DNA from: an uncultured Desulfobacteraceae bacterium
GTDB lineage: Bacteria; Desulfobacterota; Desulfobacteria; Desulfobacterales; UBA5852
DNA length: 64,000 nucleotides
Reading direction: 5' to 3'
Assembly: GCA_913060875.1 (NCBI GenBank)
Contig: CAJXSL010000001.1
Location: forward strand, 1,205,398 to 1,269,397
The position numbers and the translations under genes are program-made. The notes under the pieces were generated by a model, which saw only the letters and a program-made list of their open reading frames with translations, searched no databases and was not told the DNA's origin. Position 1 is the stretch's first letter. Each line of letters starts with the position of its first letter. This document shows positions 49,143-52,385 of this stretch, piece by piece.

Positions 49143-51560
49143 TCATGAAGATGCCGGGTGGCTCGGACGGTCCAATTCCTCGCGTACCACAAGCCCGAGT
49201 TGTTCAAAGCTATAGGGCTTTTTGATGTACGGCCCGGCACCCAGTCGTTGGGCTTCGGCAACGGATTTGTTTTCGGAAAATCCGCTGGCGATGACGGCTT
49301 TCTGGCCGGGGGACTGGGCAATGATGCGGCGATAGGTCGCCAGGCCGTCGATGCCCGGCGGCATGATCATGTCGAGGAGCAGGATGTCGGCCGGATGGTT
49401 TTGTAAATAGGATACCGCCGCCTCGCCGCTGGGAACATGCGTCACCTCATAGCCAAGCCGCAATAGGATCTGTGTGGCAATATCCCGCTGCTCCTTTACG
49501 TCATCGATCACCAGCACACGCTCTCCCCGCCCCCGGTACTGCTCCGGCGGGATTGTTTTATCGACTTCAGGGAGGTGGCCGTTGCGGCTCATGGGGAAGT
49601 AGAGGGTAAACGTCGTCCCCTTGCCGGGGGTGCTTTCCACGTCGATGTAACCGTGGTGATCCTTGACCGTGCCCCAGACGACGGCCATGCCCAACCCGGT
49701 GCCGGAGCGTCCCATTTGTTTCTTGGTGAAGAAGGGCTCAAAAATTTTTTCCATATCCTCCGGCGCGATACCTTCGCCGGTATCACTGACCTTGAGTTTC
49801 AGGTATTCCCCCTCGTTCACGTCGTCATAACCGCAGACCGTATCGTCGATATAGGCCTGGGCCGTTGTGATGTCGATCACCCCGCCATCCGGCATGGCCT
49901 CCGCGGCATTGGACACCAGGTTCATGATCGTTTTGGAAAGATGAACCTGGGACCCGTTTATCAGTCCCAGATCGGAGGCGAATCGGGTCTGGATGCGAAC
50001 CGCCGGATGATAGAAAAGAATTTTTTTACATTCCGGACTGTCGACGAATTGGGAGACCAGGGTGTTCAGGTCAACGGGATCATGGACGGGGATGCCCCGG
50101 CGGGCCAGCGTTAACAGGTCCTGGACGATGGCGGCGGCTTTTTCACCGGAGGATTTAATGGTCATCACCGAGTCGCGCAATGGATGATCCGGCGGCAGAT
50201 CCATGAGAATAAGCTCCGGATAGCTGATAATGCCCGACAGGATGTTGTTCAGGTCGTGGGCAACGCCGCCGGCCAGCGTGCCGATGGCCTCCATTTTCTC
50301 GGCGCGGCTGAGCTTGATTTCCAGTTCCTGGCGCTTTTCTTCGTGGGCGATGCGGTCCTGGATCTCGGCGAGCAGCTTTTGGTTGAGCTGGGACAGTTCA
50401 CTGGTGCGTTCGGCAACCCTGTCTTCCAACAGGTTGCGGGATTCCTCCAGTTTGACAACCTGGCGGTTGATAGTGTCGGCCATGGCATTCAATGCCGTGT
50501 ATATGGTTTGAAACTCGATAAAGTCAGATGGCCGCACGGGTATTTGATACGTCAGGTCGTTTTGAATCCGCTTGGTTTCGCCGATGGTCTGGCGGAAGGC
50601 CCGGATCATGCGCCGGGCCGAAAACAGAAGGAAAGCGAGAATGAAAACGTTCACCAGCAACGAGAATTTCTGAAGGTTGGCGATCTGCTTTTTGAGTTTA
50701 TGGTAGGCGGTTTCGATGTCTTCTTTGGCGGTATTCAGTTGACCCATGATGAGGGCCTGGTTGGTCTCTTTTTCTGTTGAAAGCTGGAGAATGCGATGCT
50801 CGATATCCAGGAAACGTGTAAAACTGTTCTCGAAAGTGCGTCCGTTGAGGAGCAGTTCTTCCACCAGCAAGCCATCCTGGGCATCCAGCGAGTAATCTTC
50901 GAGTGTGTTGATCATTCGGTAGAACGTATGGATTCGTTCATCGAATTCCATGCTGATGGCGGTGGGCGGAATGCCGTGTTCGAGTTTGGCGAACGTTTCG
51001 AAAATATCCAGCATACTGGTCTGGATGGCAACCGCGGCCTGGATGATGTCGAGTTCGGGGGCCGATCTTACCGGACTGCGCGCGAAATCTTTTTCGGTAT
51101 CATAGTCCTGGTCTGTTTTGCCCCTTGAAAGGCTGTTTTTCAGATAGGCGATGTGGTGTTCATGGATGTAGCGGACGCTGGAGGTCAATGATGGCAGGAG
51201 GCCGTTCAAATGGTCATGCAGACGCTGACGCTCGAGCACCAGATCGGTAAGCTGGACAACGAGATGATAACGTCTGTCAAAGATGTCCGGATCCAGAGCC
51301 TGCTCCAGGCTTTGGGCCGTGGTGCCTAAAGTTTGGTAATGGCGGACCAGGGTACGGCCGTCGCCGGCTTGCTCCAGGGCCCTGGTTTCCTCGGCCATCG
51401 TTTCCAGAAAGGCGCGCTTGCTATCCAGAATGGCATGGTGGGTTACTTCCGACAGATTGACACGGTGTCGAAAGTGATAATCGAGCGCGATGACACCCGC
51501 CTCGACCAGAATGGCGGCAATCAGGATATAGAGGGTTTTTTTAAGGGACTTGATGGGCAT
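49143..51560 (-). CDS. Hybrid histidine kinase coupled to the rhodanese gene
   Basis: 805 aa. TM1 is at about 10-28. A long, mostly helical periplasmic domain (about 29-300) carries no known family signature. TM2 is at about 303-322, then a HAMP-like linker and coiled coil (about 325-420). HisKA has LAGGVAHDLNNILSG, the ATPase RSGTGLGMAVVWG, and the receiver (about 680-800) acceptor Asp in ILLLDMIMPPGIDGL. Its kinase half is paralogous to the protein at 18668-22072. The start lies 3 bases after the stop of the exported rhodanese gene, so the two are translated together; a periplasmic rhodanese and the periplasmic sensor may work together (inference). Confidence 0.93.
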   Translation of the reverse strand: MPIKSLKKTLYILIAAILVEAGVIALDYHFRHRVNLSEVTHHAILDSKRAFLETMAEETRALEQAGDGRTLVRHYQTLGTTAQSLEQALDPDIFDRRYHLVVQLTDLVLERQRLHDHLNGLLPSLTSSVRYIHEHHIAYLKNSLSRGKTDQDYDTEKDFARSPVRSAPELDIIQAAVAIQTSMLDIFETFAKLEHGIPPTAISMEFDERIHTFYRMINTLEDYSLDAQDGLLVEELLLNGRTFENSFTRFLDIEHRILQLSTEKETNQALIMGQLNTAKEDIETAYHKLKKQIANLQKFSLLVNVFILAFLLFSARRMIRAFRQTIGETKRIQNDLTYQIPVRPSDFIEFQTIYTALNAMADTINRQVVKLEESRNLLEDRVAERTSELSQLNQKLLAEIQDRIAHEEKRQELEIKLSRAEKMEAIGTLAGGVAHDLNNILSGIISYPELILMDLPPDHPLRDSVMTIKSSGEKAAAIVQDLLTLARRGIPVHDPVDLNTLVSQFVDSPECKKILFYHPAVRIQTRFASDLGLINGSQVHLSKTIMNLVSNAAEAMPDGGVIDITTAQAYIDDTVCGYDDVNEGEYLKLKVSDTGEGIAPEDMEKIFEPFFTKKQMGRSGTGLGMAVVWGTVKDHHGYIDVESTPGKGTTFTLYFPMSRNGHLPEVDKTIPPEQYRGRGERVLVIDDVKEQRDIATQILLRLGYEVTHVPSGEAAVSYLQNHPADILLLDMIMPPGIDGLATYRRIIAQSPGQKAVIASGFSENKSVAEAQRLGAGPYIKKPYSFEQLGLVVREELDRPSHPASS

Positions 51561-51563
51561 GGT

Positions 51564-52385
51564 TCAGTCGGCAACCGAGCTGTTTTCGGTGGGGTAGTCC
51601 AATTTGATCCATCCGCGCATCCCAAACTGAAGCCCTTTGATGTTGGTCAACCCAAACTGGCTGAGATAGCGCGTAACATAGGCGTCGCGATTGCCCGTTT
51701 CGGTGATGGTTACCACCAGACCGGTTCTGGGTATCGCGGCCCGAACAGCCGGATCCTGAAGATCGTCCAACCGCAGTATTTGGGTATGGCAATTGGACCG
51801 AATGCGCAGCGGCGGATTGTCCGGGCGCAAATGGTTTTCGTTGCGAAAATCCAGAATCGTCACGATGGGATTGCCATGGCTATCGACGCATCCCTGAGTT
51901 AGGGCGTCATCCAGTTTTTTCTGCAGCGTATCGGCCGCGATGAATTCCGTATCGATTTCCGGCAGGGGGTTGATCGATTCCAAAGGCAGCCCTGACTTGC
52001 GCCAATCCTTGATGCCGCCGTTATAGATGCGGATGTTGCGATAGCCGAGGTTTTTAACGGCAACTGCCGTCTTGTAGGAAAAAACTCACCGGTAGCCCAT
52101 GCAATAGGTGATGATCAAGCGTTCCCGGTCGGCTCCCAGACGATCCGCCAAATCGGGAACCCGGCTCCAGGGTATGTTGATCGAGCCCGGAATGGAATGA
52201 TGTTCGTAAATGAGGCCATCCAGCGTGTTGACCAGGATAAAGTCCAGTTCCCCGGCCTCCCGTTCCGCCAACAGGTGGTGAAGCTCCTGGGTTGTCATGA
52301 TTTCAAAGCGTTCCATGCCCGCGGCAGGCGAAAGCAAACCTGTCAGTATCCAGATCATGGCGGTTATCGATAGCTGTTTGAACAT
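51564..52385 (-). CDS. Exported rhodanese-like protein, probable selenoprotein (in-frame TGA)
   Basis: Two open frames (52385-52086 and 51983-51564) lie in one reading frame and join through a single TGA at 52088-52086 into 274 codons. Residues 1-24 are a signal peptide; SD is AGGAG. Rhodanese domain 1 runs on past the TGA: ITYCMGYR-[TGA]-VFSYKTAVAVKNLGYRN, then IRIYNGGIKDWRKSGLP. In related proteins the loop reads C-x-G-x-x-C-x-x-S; the TGA sits at the second Cys, where Sec would be an isosteric replacement. Domain 2 (about 150-265) has VVTITETGNRDA with no catalytic Cys. A SECIS-like hairpin follows the TGA. The alternative is a nonsense mutation. Confidence 0.72.
52050..52085 (-). promoter_or_regulatory. 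SECIS-like hairpin just after the in-frame TGA
   Basis: On the mRNA, immediately 3' of UGA, GUUUUU pairs with AAAAAC as the lower stem, and ACGGC-AGUU-GCCGU forms the upper stem with a four-base apical loop. The loop begins 20 bases after UGA and has G as its second base. This fits the published bacterial SECIS rules (short apical loop with G in the first two positions, about 16-37 bases from UGA). Confidence 0.6.

Follow-up and report, generated by a model that had tools for sequence, protein, structure and literature searches.

Several forms of selenorhodanese have been listed, one of them fused to a DsbD-like part (PMC13188914). TsoB (NF045694; Haft and Tolstoy 2025) is a rhodanese/DsbD fusion selenoprotein, listed with a U-x4-U motif in a review (PMC13188914). 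The LYCAU rhodanese-related (seleno)protein (NF041203) is small and exported, and its Sec lies close to the catalytic site, in a C-x-U spacing (PMC13188914). For signalling, the closest described system is TorT-TorS, which consists of a periplasmic protein and a hybrid kinase whose helical sensor region, also periplasmic, sits between two membrane helices. The TorS sensor is built of two stacked four-helix bundles, and its signals are TorT and TMAO (PMC8534201).

The locus described here lies in a stretch of DNA of 64,000 nucleotides, which is referred to as the window. The rhodanese gene occupies 51564..52385 on the minus strand, as are all the features below, and encodes 273 residues, as judged from ORF read-through and from the 17 family members, with one in-frame TGA and a terminator TGA at 51566-51564. 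An ORF of 99 aa (52385-52086) starts with the ATG at 52385, and the next frame continues it in phase via the single TGA at 52088-52086. An earlier note on this DNA had proposed that two frames join through one TGA into a two-domain rhodanese. Because both frames are joined in phase in this way its coordinates are right, and the Pfam match across the TGA and the two domains modelled by AlphaFold2 agree with it. The active-site loop reads YC(95)MGYR-TGA(100)-VFSYKTAVAVKNLGYRNIRIYNGGIKDW, with the TGA five residues past the catalytic Cys, again as the note had it. Its first residue is Cys95 (TGC, 52101..52103), and its last is the TGA read as Sec100 (52086..52088).

The protein begins with a signal-peptide-like N-terminus (residues 1-24, MFKQLSITAMIWILTGLLSPAAGM, 52314..52385), the hydrophobic stretch of which is conserved among orthologues. 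The signal peptide of the earlier note thus stands as a feature recognised from the sequence only, and suggests that the rhodanese is exported to the periplasm. The catalytic rhodanese domain follows (residues 24-139, 51969..52316). Pfam Rhodanese PF00581 matches this domain only, at 50.8 bits (cut-off 22.2) over residues 59-130, spanning the TGA, and neither half on its own side of the TGA gives a Pfam Rhodanese score. AlphaFold2, run with 15 family rows, predicts two rhodanese-like domains (pLDDT 89), and the predicted domain 1 matches the solved rhodanese 3tp9 with a Z of 17.1 and an rmsd of 1.4 over 103 residues. The alignment and the model identify the second rhodanese-like domain (residues 148-265, 51591..51944) as degenerate: it has TETGNRD at the place of the catalytic Cys. 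In the orthologue alignment its C166 is nearly invariant and its C199 invariant.

TsoB is the best NCBIfam match for all nine family members scanned. The TsoB loci that were fetched have the loops UAGLAU or UAGLTU, with Sec at both loop positions and the same spacing as in the U-x4-U members of the present family, so the chemistry of the loop is not unique. The window protein is nevertheless not a TsoB, since its score of 53.7 bits falls short of the cut-off of 805 and the match covers residues 24-139 only. TsoB continues with its DsbD-like part (about 170-571 of the profile), whereas the window protein has the degenerate second rhodanese domain instead, and a gene for a sensor protein directly after it. 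TsoB exceeds its cut-off in 44 of 291 genomes of the order, and has no match in the host genome. Membership of LYCAU was likewise rejected (38.4 bits, with the cut-off at 115); that family differs both in its C-x-U spacing and in being a single domain of 126 positions. Double rhodaneses with C-x4-C loops provide a further comparison. One example is L012, a more distant rhodanese from the same genome, which has YCGGLKC twice and thus the same spacing, with its second Cys at the aligned Sec position. However, it has Cys only, consists of two complete rhodanese domains, and is about 34% identical over one domain. A different rhodanese in genomes of the same genus (L014:1501-1878, L015:1489-1869) reads YCKGPG-TGA-VKSKMAA, which is also a C-x4-Sec loop. 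The earlier note had known of no described case of its arrangement. This is right only in part, given the U-x4-U listed for TsoB (PMC13188914) and the C-x4-U of L014 and L015. The double-rhodanese architecture and the fixed receptor partner appear new, within an incomplete coverage of the literature.

The host is a bacterium of sulfate-reducer type. Its genome (5.88 Mb, 99.7% complete) was searched for the machinery of selenocysteine insertion, as the earlier note had suggested. It encodes selC (tRNA-Sec, 75.6 bits), SelB (355.6 bits), SelA (616.4 bits) and SelD, the last of these twice. The two SelD genes (C7:188817-189743 and C15:54858-55781) have one in-frame TGA apiece. Orthologues of the rhodanese were collected by a contig search, a phylum-wide sample, an order sample and one further order, and after removal of duplicates there were 17, including that of the window. 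They come from independent assemblies and from several orders, and include Desulfosarcina, Desulfogranum, Desulfocapsa, Fundidesulfovibrio and other genomes. Position 100 is TGA in all 17, with homology running on past it in every one, and Cys, TAA or TAG is found there in none. A search of some 800 genomes with the profile of the family brought up no all-Cys orthologue. The note had written the motif of related proteins as C-x-G-x-x-C and proposed looking for Cys in place of Sec; this applies to the distant L012 and to no orthologue (0/17). It is instead the catalytic Cys that alternates with Sec, the first loop position being TGA in eight of the 17 (U-x4-U, or U-x-G-x-x-U).

Two members that are closely related, L035 and L039 (joined at support 95/89, with end branches of 0.09 and 0.04), are unlike at the first loop position. 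This implies that Cys and Sec interchange there, while Sec is fixed at the second. It follows that the second position, and not the classical nucleophile, carries the indispensable selenium. A single clade of double-Sec proteins was considered and rejected: the tree needs six changes, with bootstrap values of 5-7, and its well-supported branches force only two.

In a SelB-dependent SECIS element, the apical loop has a central GU and lies about 20 nt from the UGA. Bacterial SECIS loops have a G within their first two positions. The window has a hairpin at 52056..52071, GACGGC-AGUU-GCCGUU, whose apical loop is 20 nt past the TGA and has its G at one of these positions, as do both loop forms of the family. 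A hairpin of SECIS form at the right distance, as the earlier note described, is thus present. Its folding energy is modest compared with shuffled sequences (z -2.2 alone and -0.5 in a wider stretch), and at gathering thresholds Rfam finds one tRNA and nothing else in the whole window. Since the folding of a single sequence is weak as proof of a SECIS, covariation was used instead, over 16 sequences, at positions 18-23/28-33 counted from the U of UGA plus the loop-closing pair. Standard pairs make up 94.6% of the hairpin together with the A-U/G-C loop-closing pair. Cells changed on both sides number 15, against 6.8 +/- 2.3 in shuffles and 0-4 in slid controls, these counts being inflated by shared ancestry, and none of 500 shuffles reached the covariation score of the hairpin. 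The loop is A-GU-U in ten sequences and G-GU-C in six, with zero exceptions, and the A-U/G-C switch that flanks the GU sits at silent third positions (GCA-GTT against GCG-GTC). L035 and L039 also differ in this loop-closing pair, and the switch was therefore not only inherited once. Without an RNA element, paired silent switching of this kind would be difficult to account for. Given that the pairs covary, silent third positions included, to a degree not seen in any of the 500 shuffles, the hairpin is very probably a SECIS. In the U-x4-U members, where the first UGA is 15 nt upstream of the second, a single hairpin may be enough for the two.

Together, the Sec machinery, the invariant TGA, the covarying hairpin and the Cys of L012 provide strong support for a selenoprotein with a C-x4-Sec pair, which the earlier note had thought probable. 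We consider it very probable that the protein is a selenoprotein, with Sec predicted at the UGA.

The feature that we consider most informative was absent from the earlier note. Each of the 17 loci has, directly downstream of the rhodanese, a gene for a membrane protein with a conserved sensor domain; it is always on the rhodanese strand and at most about 90 nt away. In the window this is a hybrid sensor histidine kinase (49143..51560), identified by Pfam and locus comparison, with sensor, HAMP-like, HisKA, HATPase and REC domains. Its start lies 3 nt past the rhodanese stop, and the preceding 20 nt contain no Shine-Dalgarno-like motif. The terminator TGA of the rhodanese is in frame with the kinase ATG (51560-51566, TGA ACC ATG), so that reading through the stop would yield a fusion; the same is seen in one relative (L032:4760-4768, TGA TCC ATG) and is not conserved in the others. 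The first 320 residues of the partner are conserved, with the motifs RYIHEHHIAYLKN and FEDYSLDAQDGLLVEELL. They contain the periplasmic, all-helical sensor domain (about residues 30-300, 50661..51473), defined by alignment, AlphaFold2, fold search and co-occurrence, in which E58, H136, N142, E169, S224, D226, D229 and E234 are invariant over 14 aligned rows. No Pfam family matches this domain above its cut-off, the only hit being a weak HAMP after it, and the sensor alignment contains no conserved Cys that might act as a partner thiol. Of the partners scanned with Pfam, nine, including that of the window, have the make-up of a hybrid histidine kinase (HisKA, HATPase, REC, and in some PAS or Hpt). 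The partner in Fundidesulfovibrio agrisoli (L037:4806-7229), however, has the same sensor domain and is a GGDEF-EAL protein with no histidine kinase. The output thus differs while the sensor domain stays, and the constant pair is therefore the selenorhodanese and the periplasmic domain, with an exchangeable output.

It is worth adding that five of 18 sensor domains (L038, L056, L057, L087 and L091) share a motif for c-type haem, CxxCH, at one position of the alignment (about residues 81-96), in the variants CLNCH, CSQCH, CMECH, CTSCH and CSECH. The receptor may therefore sense something by itself, or have a second input. The sensor domain of the window, like the remaining ones, is without CxxCH.

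The rhodanese and the sensor domain also occur together across genomes, in searches whose E-values are per genome. A search of 389 genomes of the order turned up the rhodanese in 12; all of these have the sensor domain, which is otherwise present in just one genome, G481. There (L087:1-500) all that precedes the receptor gene is what appear to be the last codons of a rhodanese (MIKLNYPVQKTEE), which suggests a disruption or an assembly join. In none of the 17 loci does the rhodanese lack its sensor-domain neighbour. The module is patchy, being present in those 12 of 389 genomes and in four of the 395 that made up the phylum sample; the five other genomes of the host's own family lack it. No wider operon is conserved, any other neighbouring family being common to at most two loci. 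A viral or plasmid origin was considered and rejected: phages and viral contigs contain no relative, and plasmids have distant rhodaneses only (27-38% identity). On the strength of the perfect linkage and the co-occurrence, the rhodanese and the receptor very likely form one functional unit, and the conserved neighbour also lends support to the sensor role raised in the earlier note.

AlphaFold2 predicts long helices for the sensor domain (pLDDT 86). The top Foldseek match of this model is the TorS sensor-TorT complex, with a probability of 1.0 but an E of only 0.01. VIA-align gives a Z of 16.8 for McpS and of 14.4-15.3 for TorS over 206-234 residues. Unrelated helical chains reach 14.5, so the match to TorS is a lead and not a proof, and the resemblance of the modelled domain to the TorS sensor fold is suggestive only. 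The sensor identity is only 8-13%, and the receptor is paired with a selenorhodanese rather than with a binding protein of the TorT type. This lead, together with the response of TorS to TorT and TMAO, is the reason for proposing an arrangement like that of TorT-TorS, with a Sec rhodanese in the role of TorT.

The explanation that we favour, with moderate confidence, is that a selenorhodanese in the periplasm relays a signal, redox or sulfur in nature, to a receptor resembling TorS. SelB and tRNA-Sec would insert Sec at the UGA, directed by the downstream hairpin. In the periplasm, the Cys/Sec pair would react with an oxidant or with a sulfane-sulfur or selenium species, forming a selenenylsulfide, a diselenide or a per-sulfide or -selenide; candidate ligands are oxidants, sulfane-sulfur, thiosulfate, tetrathionate and selenium species. 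The modified rhodanese would then dock on the helical domain of the receptor, as TorT does on TorS, and docking would alter the kinase or cyclic-di-GMP output. Docking as the route of the signal we rate slightly above an even chance. That the signal is a redox or sulfur species, as the chemistry of the motif suggests, could equally be right or wrong.

The rhodanese could instead be a periplasmic sulfur or selenium transferase or reductase, with a sensor that regulates it or is simply co-expressed, and no direct signalling contact. Its domain 1 clearly has the rhodanese fold (Z 17.1) and an intact active-site loop, and selenorhodaneses are listed in several forms, the DsbD-like fusion among them (PMC13188914). 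However, no gene of a substrate pathway is conserved nearby, and the rhodanese is never found apart from the sensor domain in the 17 loci. That domain, moreover, is kept while the output changes, which favours contact of the rhodanese with the receptor itself. We therefore regard a purely enzymatic role as unlikely, though a serious alternative.

Less likely still is that the UGA gates expression, such that in the absence of selenium translation would stop at codon 100, the coupled kinase would not be made, and the operon would sense the selenium supply. The close spacing in the window would suit such coupling, as would the several orthologues in which the two genes are adjacent or overlap. 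Against it, gaps of 13-83 nt separate them in L033, L037, L038, L057 and L063, some with Shine-Dalgarno-like motifs, and a pure gate would not need its Sec in the active-site loop. Gating may also operate in addition to reporting by the selenorhodanese. As for a sequencing error or a decaying pseudogene with a nonsense mutation, nothing speaks for it except the TGA itself. The recurrence of the TGA in 17 independent assemblies, the homology beyond it in all of them and the compensatory silent changes in the hairpin mean that this reading, to which we give almost no weight, is in practice already refuted.

Reporting by the selenorhodanese to its receptor has a stronger form, which we hold to be evenly poised: a selenium-based signalling module in which the Cys-Sec or Sec-Sec pair would itself do the sensing on behalf of a TorS-like receptor, and the output, a phosphorelay or cyclic-di-GMP, would be interchangeable. 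Our literature search, of incomplete coverage, found no described selenoprotein that is the fixed partner of a sensor receptor. Standard gene calling stops such genes at the TGA, and the family is therefore probably mis-annotated at present. Its hosts include named and apparently cultured organisms (Desulfosarcina alkanivorans PL12 and Desulfogranum japonicum DSM 18378, both with C-x4-U, and Fundidesulfovibrio agrisoli SG106 with U-x4-U), so the idea is testable. The fixed Sec with its alternating Cys or Sec partner provides a natural series for asking what a second selenium adds, that is, a selenenylsulfide compared with a diselenide. The majority of predicted selenoproteins are regarded as redox enzymes (PMC9312934). 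If the proposal is true, this would be a selenoprotein with environmental sensing, rather than catalysis, as its main task.
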